Shown piece after piece: positions 11,688 through 57,843 of a stretch of 64,000 nucleotides of DNA. The notes under the pieces are model-generated. The model was not told the origin of the DNA. It ran no database searches and saw only the letters and a list, made by a program, of their open reading frames with translations. The stretch lies in NCBI RefSeq assembly GCF_030273315.1, contig NZ_CP127174.1, forward strand, positions 2,170,001 to 2,234,000, given 5' to 3'. Both the position numbers and the translations under genes were made by a program. Source of the stretch: Natrialbaceae archaeon AArc-T1-2. Lineage in GTDB: Archaea; Halobacteriota; Halobacteria; Halobacteriales; Natrialbaceae. Each line of letters starts with the position of its first letter. Positions within the stretch are counted from its first letter, which is position 1.

Positions 11688-13211
11688 ATGGCCGACGCTA
11701 TCGACCTCGTCGAACGGTCGCTCGCGGACGACACCCGCGAGACATTCGATCAACGCGTCGACGACCAAGCGGTCGCTCTCGCCGAGGCGTTGCGGGCGGG
11801 TCGCCTCGACAGTCCCGGCTTCGGACTCGGGCTCGAGCTCGAGATTTACGCCGTCGATGCGGACGGTCGGCTCGCGAGAGTGCCCGACGACGTCTTCGAG
11901 ACGGCCTGTGAGCGAGAGTTCGGACGCCACAACGCCGAGCTCAACACCGATCCGGATCCCTTCGACGACGCGGGAATCGTCGCCCAGGCCGAGCAGCTTC
12001 GTCGTCGGTACCGACGGGCCCAGGAGGCGGCCGGCGAGAACGGACTCGAGTTCGTCCTCGATGCCATGTGGACCGTTCCGCCCGCCGCAGGGACCGACGC
12101 GTACCTGTCGGACGTCCGCGAACGCGACGGGTACACCGTCGCCGAGAACATGACGCCGTCGCCGCGCTACCGGGCGATCGACAACGACGTGATCGCACAC
12201 GCCGGCGGGACGGTGACGCTGTCGGTGCCCGGCGTCGACCGGGAGTTTCCTTCGATGCTGTTCGAGTCGCTGACGAGTTCGATCCAGCCCCACGTTCAGG
12301 TCCCGGACGTCGGGACGTTTCCGCGGTACTACAACACCGCCATCCGGACGCTCGGTCCGGTGCTCGCGCTGGCGACGAACTCCCCGCTTTTACCCCCGGA
12401 TCTGTACGACGTCGACGACCCGTTCGCGTTGCTCGAGAAGACGTACCACGAACTCCGAATTCCCGTCTTCGAGCAGTCGATCGACGACGCCTGGGAGAAA
12501 GTACGGTTTCCCGACGGTCTCGAGCGGACGGTCGACGCGCTGGAGTACCTCGTCGACGACCCGACGTGTGCGCCCTTCCTCAAAGAGTGGCTCTCCGACG
12601 GGGAGCGGGAGACGTTCGGCGAGCGGTTCTGGGAACTGGATCACAAACGAGGCACCTACTGGCGGTGGCTCCGTGCCGTCCTCGGCGGACAGCCGATCGG
12701 CGAGGGAGACGCGTGGTCGATGCGGATCGAGTACCGGCCGTTACCCACTCAGCCGACGATCGTCGACAACGTCGGCGTCCAGTGTCTGGTCGCCGGTCTC
12801 GTCCGCGGCCTCGTCGACGCCGACCACCCGCTCGCTACCCTCGAGGCCGACGCTGCCGAGCGCTGTTTCTACGACGTCGTCACGGACGGCCTCGAGGCAG
12901 ACCTCGCGTGGATCACCGCAGACGGCACGTGGACGAGCGATCCCGACACCATCTACGAGGAGCTGTTCGACTACGCCCGCCGGGGACTGCGGGCGGCGGG
13001 GGCCTCTCCCGAGACGATCGCGGCGTATCTCGAGCCGATCGAACAGCGCTGGCACGAGGAGACGACCCCGAGTGCCTGGAAGCTCGAACTCGTCCGGAGC
13101 CGCCTCGAGCGCGGCGAGAGCTTCGCCGAGGCCGTCCGCGGAATGCAAGCCGAGTACAGAACGCGGGCGGGTACCGGGGAACCGTTCGTACGATGGCCCG
13201 AGGGTCGGTGA
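11688..13211 (+). CDS. GCS2-like (glutamate-cysteine ligase-related) protein
   Basis: A 507-residue protein related to the carboxylate-amine ligase superfamily. FGLGLELEIYAVDADGR resembles the GxEEE/GLELE metal-ATP motif at the start of GCS2 proteins, and HNAELNTDP continues the same sheet. QPHVQVPD and WSMRIEYRPLPTQP resemble the later active-site strands. It is larger than the true GshA of this window (46127-47221) and differs enough to be another ligase or an inactive paralogue. The ATG at 11688 starts MADAIDLVERSL. Substrates unknown. Confidence 0.65.
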   Translation: MADAIDLVERSLADDTRETFDQRVDDQAVALAEALRAGRLDSPGFGLGLELEIYAVDADGRLARVPDDVFETACEREFGRHNAELNTDPDPFDDAGIVAQAEQLRRRYRRAQEAAGENGLEFVLDAMWTVPPAAGTDAYLSDVRERDGYTVAENMTPSPRYRAIDNDVIAHAGGTVTLSVPGVDREFPSMLFESLTSSIQPHVQVPDVGTFPRYYNTAIRTLGPVLALATNSPLLPPDLYDVDDPFALLEKTYHELRIPVFEQSIDDAWEKVRFPDGLERTVDALEYLVDDPTCAPFLKEWLSDGERETFGERFWELDHKRGTYWRWLRAVLGGQPIGEGDAWSMRIEYRPLPTQPTIVDNVGVQCLVAGLVRGLVDADHPLATLEADAAERCFYDVVTDGLEADLAWITADGTWTSDPDTIYEELFDYARRGLRAAGASPETIAAYLEPIEQRWHEETTPSAWKLELVRSRLERGESFAEAVRGMQAEYRTRAGTGEPFVRWPEGR

Positions 13212-16828: not shown

Positions 16829-17944
16829 TCAGAAAAACGGCACCCAGACGGTCGTCGGCAGCACGGTCACGAGATAGAGGGCGACGACGAGCGCGGTTCC
16901 GAAGACGATTCCTGCGGCCGGCGGGTCGACGTGTGTCTCGCCGTGGGCGTAGAAGACTCGCTGGAAGAGTTCGCCGAACAGCGCGGACGCGATTCCGACC
17001 GCCGCGCCGACCAGCAGTGCGACCTCGAGCGAGCCGCTTCCGGCGAGGACGGCCGCATCGTTGTACGGAACCGGTGCGTCCTCGATCTCGTCGGGACCGA
17101 GCGCGACGGCAAGCGCCGCCGTACTCGCCGGCAGGGTGACGTGGTGGGTGACGGGAACGTTCTCGACGCCACAGTTCAGAAACAGCAGCGTCGCCGCGCT
17201 GATCCCGAACGCGAGGAAGGCGCTGCCGGTGACGACGGCGACGTACGCCCCGAGAATGCCGGCGACGAGCCCGGTCGTCGCCACGTGTCCCCACCTGTAC
17301 TGGTGGGGGAGCCACGGTTCGACGACCAGTCGAGCACGGATCCTCGAGCGGACTCCGGACTCGTGTTCGATCCTCTCGGCCGTCGCCTGGCCGCCGTCCG
17401 GCGCGGGCTCGCGTCGTTCGCCCCGTTCGAACGGACTCATGTCGAGGACGTTTCCGCGAACCCTCCCGACGAGACTGTACCTCAGGATCAGCCGGTGAAA
17501 CAGCGCCGAGAGGACGACGCCCATCGCGATCGGATCGTAGGGCATGCCAAGCGTTACAGAGAGTTCGGTGAGCCAGAATCCGAGGACGCCGAATGCGCCG
17601 CCAACCGCGAGGACGTCCGGCTTGGTGCCAAGCGCCCGGGTGACGTTTTTCGCTTCGTGATAGCGAAACCCCGTGTTCAGGTATCCCTGCCGCGCTGCAT
17701 AGGCCGTGGCTGCGGCCCCGCCGCCGAAGCTCACCGCCGGCGAGAACGCGGGTCCGAACGCGACGTCGTCCGTGATCGCGGTCGCACCCGGATCGACCAG
17801 CACTGCCGCTTCGCCGACGATCACGAGAAAGCCGGTGAAAATAAACGCCGGCAGCGCACCGATAGCCGCCCCGAACGCGCCGCCGCCGAAGGCGGCAATA
17901 AGCGACTCCAACGAGAACAGCGCCTCGAGAAGGTCCTCGATCAT
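16829..17944 (-). CDS. polytopic membrane protein, family not recognised
   Basis: A 371-residue protein with roughly eight hydrophobic segments: Gly/Ala-rich helices at residues 10-60, 65-90, 110-160 and 220-370, separated by a charged cytoplasmic-type loop (about 165-210). Conserved-looking stretches include FNCGVENVPVTHH-type text (FLNCGVENVPVTHH) and GTKPDVLAVGG. It appears to be a haloarchaeal conserved protein without an assigned role. The start is the ATG at 17944; a GTG directly before it is the only nearby alternative. Confidence 0.72.
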   Translation of the reverse strand: MIEDLLEALFSLESLIAAFGGGAFGAAIGALPAFIFTGFLVIVGEAAVLVDPGATAITDDVAFGPAFSPAVSFGGGAAATAYAARQGYLNTGFRYHEAKNVTRALGTKPDVLAVGGAFGVLGFWLTELSVTLGMPYDPIAMGVVLSALFHRLILRYSLVGRVRGNVLDMSPFERGERREPAPDGGQATAERIEHESGVRSRIRARLVVEPWLPHQYRWGHVATTGLVAGILGAYVAVVTGSAFLAFGISAATLLFLNCGVENVPVTHHVTLPASTAALAVALGPDEIEDAPVPYNDAAVLAGSGSLEVALLVGAAVGIASALFGELFQRVFYAHGETHVDPPAAGIVFGTALVVALYLVTVLPTTVWVPFF

Positions 17945-20168: not shown

Positions 20169-20232
20169 GCTCGAGCGTACGACGGCGAGGTGCAAACACC
20201 CGTCGGTGCGGTAGACACCCGCCACCGCTCGT

Positions 20233-20345
20233 TTATACTGTCGGTCATAGCGACGTGAACACGGCTGGTGACAGCACGGCCAGACACACGTTCAACGGCC
20301 GGATCACCCGGACACCAGCTCACCGGTCCATGACCGACAGTATTA
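20233..20345. mobile_element. MITE-like element, copy A, with TTA target duplication
   Basis: The 107-bp core (20236-20342) begins TACTGTCGGTCAT and ends with the exact reverse complement ATGACCGACAGTA. It is flanked on both sides by TTA (20233-20235, 20343-20345). Inside, GCTGGTG/CACCAGC and CGGCC/GGCCG are nested inverted repeats, so either strand can fold into a long hairpin. It encodes no protein. It differs from copy B at one base (G at 20250). It separates divergent pcm and the AlkP-family gene, and its ends supply TATA-like sequence to both. Confidence 0.92.
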
Positions 20346-20346
20346 C
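20341..20346 (+). promoter_or_regulatory. TATA-like box at the MITE right junction
   Basis: TATTAC spans the element end and its target duplication, 24-29 bp before the ATG at 20370. If used, the promoter of the AlkP-family gene is partly transposon-derived. Confidence 0.5.
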
Positions 20347-20369
20347 TCTCGGGGTCCGTAGACGAGCCC

Positions 20370-21647
20370 ATGGGACAGAACGGGATCGAACGACGCCTCC
20401 GCGAGGAGCGACTCGAGGACGGCGTTCTGTTTCCGGCCTACGAGGACTACTGCGTCGCGAACGTTCCGGAGACGGCGCTCGCGATGCTCTCGTCCGGGTT
20501 CGACCGGGCGCTTCCCGATCGGGTCCTCGAGGACGTCGCGACCGCCGTCGACCACGTCGTTCTCGTCGTGGTAGACGGGTTCGGCTACGAGGTGTGGCAG
20601 CGTGCGTACCGCGACCACGCGTTCCTCTCGCGACTCACCATCCGCGGGACGGTGACGCCGCTGACGTCGGTATACCCATCGGAGACGGCGTCGGCGCTGA
20701 CGACGCTTTACACGGGGCGCGATCCGATCGAGCACGGACTGCTCGGCTGGTACCAGTACCTCGAGTCCGTCGGTCGCGACGTCGTGACGCTTCCGTTTAC
20801 GACGCTTTCGGGCGAGGCGCTCGTAGACGTCGCTCCGGACGCGGACGCGAACGAGTTGTTCGCGGGGACGTCGCTGTACGAACGAGCGCGTGCGGCCGGA
20901 ATCGACGTGTGGACGATCCAGCCGGCCGATTACGTCGGCTCCGGATACACGCGGGCGGCGACCGCCGGTGCCGAACGGGCGGGCTACGACGGAGCGAGCG
21001 AGTTCGCCCGCTCGATTCGACGAACGCTCGAGGCCGCCGCCGGGCCGACGCTCGTCCACGCCTACGAGCCGACGCTCGACGAACTCGCCCACGCCGGTGG
21101 GACCGACACTCGACGCTACCGGACGGCCCTCGGTGAGATCGCGGACGCGCTCGAGCGTGAACTGCTCCAGGAGCTCGCCCCGGCCGTCGCCGAACGAACC
21201 GTACTGATCGTGACGGCCGACCACGGAATCGTCGACACCGTCCCCGAAGAGAACGTCGACCCGACCGCGTGGGACGACTGGGACCGACTTCAGGAGACGT
21301 TTCGACGCGACGCCGACGGCGAGCCCCGGCTCCCGACGGGCAGCCCGCGAAACGTTCACGTCCACGTCCGGCCGGACCGGCTCGCGGACGCCCGGGAAAT
21401 CCTCGAGCGAAACCTCGACGGGCTGGTGTTCGACCGGCGGGAGGCACTCGAGCGGGACCTGTTCGGACTCGGCTCGCGGTCCGGGCTGTTCGACCAACGG
21501 TGTGGCGACCTGATCGCCGTTCACCGGAATCGCGGCGTCTGCTGGCGGGCCGGGGATCGCAAGCTGGTCGGGATGCACGGCGGGCTGACCCCGGCGGAGA
21601 TGCTGGTGCCGTTTGCCACGGCTCGCCTCGATACGCTCCGGGGGTGA
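20370..21647 (+). CDS. alkaline phosphatase-superfamily phosphodiesterase
   Basis: A 425-residue metal-dependent hydrolase of the type I phosphodiesterase / nucleotide pyrophosphatase group. The first metal site is VVDGFGYE; the nucleophile region YPSETASALTTLYTGRDP carries Ser/Thr; the second site includes TADHGIVDTVP; and GMHGGLTPAEMLVP near the end is the closing His motif. No signal peptide is evident, so it is probably cytoplasmic. Substrate unknown. The ATG at 20370 gives a normal hydrophilic N-terminus. Confidence 0.87.
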   Translation: MGQNGIERRLREERLEDGVLFPAYEDYCVANVPETALAMLSSGFDRALPDRVLEDVATAVDHVVLVVVDGFGYEVWQRAYRDHAFLSRLTIRGTVTPLTSVYPSETASALTTLYTGRDPIEHGLLGWYQYLESVGRDVVTLPFTTLSGEALVDVAPDADANELFAGTSLYERARAAGIDVWTIQPADYVGSGYTRAATAGAERAGYDGASEFARSIRRTLEAAAGPTLVHAYEPTLDELAHAGGTDTRRYRTALGEIADALERELLQELAPAVAERTVLIVTADHGIVDTVPEENVDPTAWDDWDRLQETFRRDADGEPRLPTGSPRNVHVHVRPDRLADAREILERNLDGLVFDRREALERDLFGLGSRSGLFDQRCGDLIAVHRNRGVCWRAGDRKLVGMHGGLTPAEMLVPFATARLDTLRG

Positions 21648-25358: not shown

Positions 25359-25510
25359 GTTTCTTCTAGTCGCCTCCCGCTTAAGGGCCTTTCGCCTTCG
25401 AAACCGGCACCCGGCGTGGGGGCGGACCGACATCAGAGCGGGGCGAAGCACCGTCTCCTCGGCCGGGAGGGAGTTTGCGAATTTATGACCGAGAGTATCG
25501 TACGCCCGCT

Positions 25511-57412: not shown

Positions 57413-57733
57413 ATGGGACTTGGCAGTACTGCAAAGAAGATCCAGGCGCTGTCGGATCACGCCGAGCAGATGTACAAGCAGGTACAGGAACTCCAGGGTC
57501 GGATCACCCGCCTCGAGGAAGAAGTCGACGAGACCCACGAGACGGTGACGACCCTCGATCACGAGCTGGCCGAACAGCGGGCGTTACTCGTCGCGATGGC
57601 CGAAGAGCAAGGGCTCGACGCCGAGGCGATTCTCGCGGAGGCGGCGATCGAGGAAGCAGAAGACGACGACGCAGCCGACGCCGACGACGAGGCGACCGTC
57701 GAGGACGCACCAGCCGCAGAGTCCGGCGAGTAA
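57413..57733 (+). CDS. DUF5798 coiled-coil protein
   Basis: A 106-residue protein, one long coiled coil (KKIQALSDHAEQMYKQVQEL and LEEEVDETHETVTTLDHELAEQ) with an acidic tail. It looks prefoldin- or scaffold-like but lacks the prefoldin beta strands. Its TAA stop codon is the left target duplication of the MITE copy B, so the insertion hit the stop and preserved it. Confidence 0.8.
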   Translation: MGLGSTAKKIQALSDHAEQMYKQVQELQGRITRLEEEVDETHETVTTLDHELAEQRALLVAMAEEQGLDAEAILAEAAIEEAEDDDAADADDEATVEDAPAAESGE

Positions 57734-57843
57734 TACTGTCGGTCATACCGACGTGAACACGGCTGGTGACAGCACGGCCAGACACACGTTCAACGGCCGG
57801 ATCACCCGGACACCAGCTCACCGGTCCATGACCGACAGTATAA
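57731..57843. mobile_element. MITE-like element, copy B, with TAA target duplication
   Basis: The 107-bp core (57734-57840) matches copy A (20236-20342) at 106 of 107 bases; C at 57748 replaces G at 20250. Same 13-bp terminal inverted repeats, same orientation, flanked by TAA on both sides (57731-57733 and 57841-57843). The left TAA is the stop codon of the DUF5798 gene. The right junction reads CAGTATAAGG, a TATA-like box pointing toward cysK, 140 bp away. Confidence 0.93.

Follow-up and report, generated by a model that had tools for sequence, protein, structure and literature searches.

The 107-bp sequence that occurs twice in the window (the whole stretch of 64,000 nucleotides analyzed here) belongs to a young, parasitic family of non-autonomous miniature transposons (MITEs) of a salt-loving archaeon. 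The family has the features by which MITEs are recognized: its elements are short and non-coding, end in terminal inverted repeats (TIRs), occur as dispersed copies with target-site duplications (TSDs), and have counterpart empty sites. Comparison of sequences indicates, with a probability of roughly 80%, that these 107-bp elements are moved in trans by the IS630-type transposase of a 1072-bp insertion sequence (IS), with duplication of a TNA target.

The two window copies and their family

The preliminary description had reported the pair, its 13-bp TIRs and its TTA and TAA duplications, all of which were verified by reading (Table 1), and had interpreted the sequence as a non-coding MITE, which is borne out by the short TIR-bounded structure, the many copies, and the TNA duplications. 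The two copies are identical at 106 of 107 bases, and the inverted ends of both are perfect. Exact TACTGTCGGTCAT has four matches in the window, all at the ends of these copies; a fifth match, at 25485, carries one mismatch and is isolated. The DUF5798 gene remained intact after insertion of copy 2, because the duplicated TAA is its stop codon. In the region 20225-20370 of the window, copy 1 occupies the whole gap between divergent genes for a PCMT-like methyltransferase (minus strand) and a phosphodiesterase-like protein (plus strand), ending 27 bp upstream of the ATG of the latter, and it probably lies within, or substitutes for, the promoters of both.

Table 1. Positions of the two MITE copies, their inverted ends, and their target duplications in the window.
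Feature	Position	Strand	Basis or remark
MITE copy 1, 107 bp	20236..20342	+	read directly; 107-mer search
Copy 1 left TSD, TTA	20233..20235	.	sequence; in relative G016, one CGTTTA without interruption here
Copy 1 left 13-bp TIR, TACTGTCGGTCAT	20236..20248	+	subterminal box GTGAAC next
Copy 1 right 13-bp TIR	20330..20342	-	sequence
Copy 1 right TSD, TTA	20343..20345	.	sequence
Copy 2 left TSD, TAA	57731..57733	.	stop codon of DUF5798 gene 57413-57733
MITE copy 2, 107 bp	57734..57840	+	sequence; 107-mer search
Copy 2 left 13-bp TIR	57734..57746	+	sequence
Copy 2 right 13-bp TIR	57828..57840	-	sequence
Copy 2 right TSD, TAA	57841..57843	.	sequence

Empty sites, which the preliminary description had proposed seeking in close strains, were found in relatives for both copies. 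Ten relatives share the gene order at copy 2 (a pyridoxal-phosphate enzyme gene following the DUF5798 gene) and lack the element, with 69-207 bp and no such ends between the genes. The flanks of copy 1, minus the element and one TTA, align across the junction to relative G016 (CCACCGCTCGTTTA...), and no such ends were found in the G016 locus that matches them. Occupation of the same loci in relatives, named beforehand as evidence against a transposon, was thus not encountered; the claim of two separate insertions stands, and that of recent activity is supported. In the distant genome G394, a 95-bp element is nested inside a host element, and excision of the nested element together with one TCA (3 bp) restores exactly 107 bp, a result that also excludes a 2-bp TA duplication as the reading of the flanks.

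Speaking of a pair understated the family, although both copies are real. The search for further copies, advised at the outset, gave 37 matches to the 107-mer in the 3.36-Mb genome of origin, G000 (E ≤ 0.001), and additional copies in related haloarchaea; 17 of the 37 are full-length and 92-100% identical, the rest mostly 71-84%. The exact 13-mer end is present 65 times in this genome, versus none for the reversed control. Target duplications were surveyed in 106 elements, drawn from five genomes, whose ends each have no more than one mismatch. An exact 3-bp TNA duplication flanks 72 of them (TCA 38, TGA 25, TTA 6, TAA 3) and a 4-bp duplication none; the remaining 34, without an exact duplication, are read as products of decay or of recombination between copies. 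Among 27 copies in G000 with intact duplications, 14 have a TNA that coincides precisely with the stop codon of an open frame of 150 codons or more, versus 12% of nearby TNA sites. Insertion at a stop leaves the gene intact because TGA and TAA are TNA words, and the excess may come from selection against insertions within genes.

Exactly 107 bp is the length of 71 of the 106 surveyed elements, and the others span 98-110 bp. Their interiors form groups, with no similarity detected from one genome to another: the inner 57 positions of G000 and G394 elements are 28% identical, compared with 29.5% for shuffled sequence, while the 13-bp ends do not differ and most of the GTGAAC box is conserved. 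Ancient elements may have retained only the parts required by the transposase, or new interiors may have been captured between the ends; under either origin, a favored end spacing would account for the length of about 107 bp. Two further size classes in G000, of ~167 bp (TACTGTCGGACAGAAGTACGTAAACG...) and 76-78 bp (TACTGCCGGACGTACGTCGTGAACG...), also carry exact TNA duplications, and all classes have in common the tip TACTRYCGG and a box near ACGTRAAC ~18-25 bases inward. The 76-78-bp class is a G+C-rich hairpin, a near-perfect palindrome around GATTCTCGCC...GGCGAGAATC seen at G000 12505-12582 and in about 10 similar places (L371-L375); once inserted, such an element could serve as a transcription terminator.

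Several composite arrangements were also observed. At L147 of G394 (478-631), two direct copies of the 23-bp TACTGTCGGACAGAGGTGGTTGA precede a complete 107-bp element, tandem single ends that look as if they came from aborted or one-ended events. Pairs of 107-bp elements lie back to back, 0-3 bp apart, at L205 of G394 (17572-17785) and at L198 (4191-4407), suggesting insertion at a TNA made by an earlier copy. In G135, elements of 204-209 bp (L184 at 2921, L145 at 1500) consist of a 107-type element interrupted by a sequence with TAGGGATTATCGTAG...CTACGATAATCCCTA ends, which is another small mobile repeat family.

Among 392 genomes of the order, the end sequence is strongly enriched in G000, G087, G135, and G394, and also in G001, a congener. 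Perfect copies occur in only one of the 146 genomes of the family of G394, namely G394 itself, which has 46, and in two of the seven genomes of the genus of G087. This very patchy distribution is compatible with bursts and loss as well as with horizontal transfer. Plasmid records gave no match to the 107-bp element, and viral contigs containing the 14-mer, at a level of matches expected by chance, have no MITE-like short TIR pair.

A candidate helper and the alternatives to it

A lone TACTGTCGG end at C1:2849337 proved to be the start of a 1072-bp IS (2849337-2850408) flanked by TCA duplications, and a second copy near 905 kb, identical at 1070 of 1072 positions, is flanked by TTA duplications. 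The left end of the first copy reads TCA|TACTGTCGGCTAAAAG and its right end GAGTA|TCA. Lone ends at 1733499/1763707 and 849551/853389 were considered as the ends of long elements and rejected, as they delimit no consistent elements. The 1072-bp IS contains two overlapping ORFs with HTH_33, HTH_32, and DDE_3 domains and a match to the NCBIfam IS630 model; the aligned catalytic ORF has a D99-E134 spacing of 34 residues. A C-AAAAAAA-G slippery site at the overlap, kept in most relatives examined, suggests that -1 ribosomal slippage would join the ORFs into a product of 340 aa.

The IS shares with the MITEs the 9-bp tip TACTGTCGG and a similar subterminal ACGTRAA box. Beyond TACT, 15 of 24 positions agree between its right end and the left end of the 107-bp element, and 17 of 24 between its right end and the 167-bp class, a similarity that 0.0002 of shuffles attain; for the right end of the 107-bp element, agreement is weak (12 of 24 positions, p about 0.03). 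A matching IS, whose absence, like that of a third copy, the preliminary description had named as a reason for doubt, is present in the form of this IS630-family element with the same tip. On these grounds, trans-mobilization by its transposase is a well-supported inference. The chemistry would be of the cut-and-paste kind: the transposase, a DDE enzyme of the Tc1/mariner type, would bind bipartite ends composed of the TACTRYCGG tip and the box near ACGTRAAC, cut the element out, and reinsert it at T-N-A, where a 3-bp stagger would produce the TNA duplication. Selection for mobility would then keep only the ends and a favored length near 107 bp, the interior drifting freely.

The doubt that carries most weight concerns which transposase is involved. 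The 107-bp elements might instead be moved by an enzyme whose own element has the complete TACTGTCGGTCAT end, either an IS630 relative that was not found or some other transposase, which has been lost from these genomes or resides in an unsampled strain; the resident 1072-bp IS would then drive only the 167-bp class. This class is indeed closer to the resident IS than the 107-bp class is, and in G394, where MITEs are most numerous, the 1072-bp IS is present only as fragments; no copy of it was found in the incomplete congener G001. Nevertheless, the resident IS matches the MITEs in tip and in TNA duplication, its near-identical copies co-occur with near-identical MITE copies in G000, and no IS with a full TACTGTCGGTCAT end was found among the end pairs in the loci read, which makes an absent helper rather unlikely.

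Far less credit is due to the helper proposed in the preliminary description, an IS1031-type element of the IS5 family. IS1031 itself makes TNA duplications, and IS5/IS4-type transposases are present in G000. The preliminary description was correct as to the duplication. Its choice of helper is unsupported and was rejected: PF01609 (IS4/IS5) has 38 matches in G394 and 13 in G000, and of 30 such loci read, covering five genomes, none is bounded by correctly arranged TACTGTCGG-like ends. An active 284-aa element has different boundaries, and the same-tip, TNA-duplicating IS630 element, present twice in the genome, explains both ends and duplication. Least probable of all, to the point of being barely tenable, is that the sequence is a conserved functional element (an RNA gene, terminator, or regulatory hairpin) and not a transposon. 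Its folding energy beats that of 200 shuffles on both strands, and the position of about half of the copies in G000 coincides exactly with an ORF end, but the same loci in relatives lack it, and the TNA duplications are exact and the distribution patchy. A palindromic RNA structure was rejected because the terminal and subterminal repeats account for the pairing, with inner positions pairing at 0.30.

TA and TNA duplication within the IS630 family

ISY100 and IS630 insert at TA and duplicate it, sharing the mechanism of Tc1/mariner elements (PMC2170065). The 1072-bp IS resembles them in its HTH_32/HTH_33 and DDE_3 domains, its match to the NCBIfam IS630 model, and its short inverted repeats, and its clade differs from them in duplicating TNA. 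It is described here as a variant IS630 branch, related by sequence, because TNA replaces the canonical TA. No report of TNA duplication for IS630 turned up in the papers searched, a set distinct from ISfinder.

The catalytic ORF was compared with 80 relatives taken from named haloarchaeal genomes. TNA duplications accompany relatives of the 1072-bp IS across many haloarchaeal genera, and in the close group 35 elements of ~1.07 kb have exact TNA repeats, with TCA, TGA, TTA, and TAA all seen, several of them in one genome. In IS630 elements that are less closely related, with similar tips, the flanks are TA and the third base is not shared; sister branches in haloarchaea duplicate TA, and another IS630 type in G000 itself (L385, three copies) is of the TA kind. 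A maximum-likelihood tree built from 48 catalytic sequences requires a single change to divide its 23 TNA from its 18 TA elements, compared with 13.6 changes on average when the labels are shuffled; the dividing branch has moderate support (88/46), and L472 and L478 are long branches. Tentatively, a haloarchaeal IS630 branch may have changed once from TA to TNA and given rise to MITEs that are kept as ends plus a length of about 107 bp, their interiors freely replaced, as the transposase complex would measure the spacing of the ends.

Relation to other small mobile repeats and implications

RUP of pneumococcus is a non-coding MITE of about 107 bp that is flanked by TA and mobilized in trans by the helper IS630-Spn1. 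Judged by these characters, RUP is like the 107-bp elements in being short, non-coding, and associated with an IS630-type helper, and unlike them in its TA flanks and duplication, its sequence, and the domain of its host. By structure the 107-bp elements belong with MITEs and, by their inferred helper, would be grouped with IS630-mobilized MITEs such as RUP.

The closest published haloarchaeal kind is SMR-A of Haloquadratum walsbyi (HqIRS42, 43, 55), non-coding elements of ~110 bp with prominent TIRs and up to 54 copies per genome, comprising several families of equal length without sequence similarity, whose mobilization has been called "enigmatic" (PMC3119063). The likeness lies in length, TIRs, non-coding character, multiple copies, and the existence of unrelated families of equal length. 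SMR-A elements reportedly lack a target duplication, have ends unlike those of any transposon, and target IS605/PATE palindromes (PMC3119063). The 107-bp elements are not placed among them because they duplicate TNA, and their tip matches an IS630 element; the comparison was made with the published description of SMR-A, and the two kinds may still be related.

Each transposase family is treated as having one invariable target duplication as its hallmark, the 2-bp TA duplication being the textbook case for IS630/Tc1/mariner (PMC2170065). Closely related TA and TNA clades with similar tips open the way to swaps that locate the residues responsible for the stagger, and 107-bp MITEs with unrelated interiors make length control of short elements by the transpososome directly testable. 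For the ~110-bp mobile repeats found in haloarchaea, the findings also suggest which sort of mobilizer should be sought.
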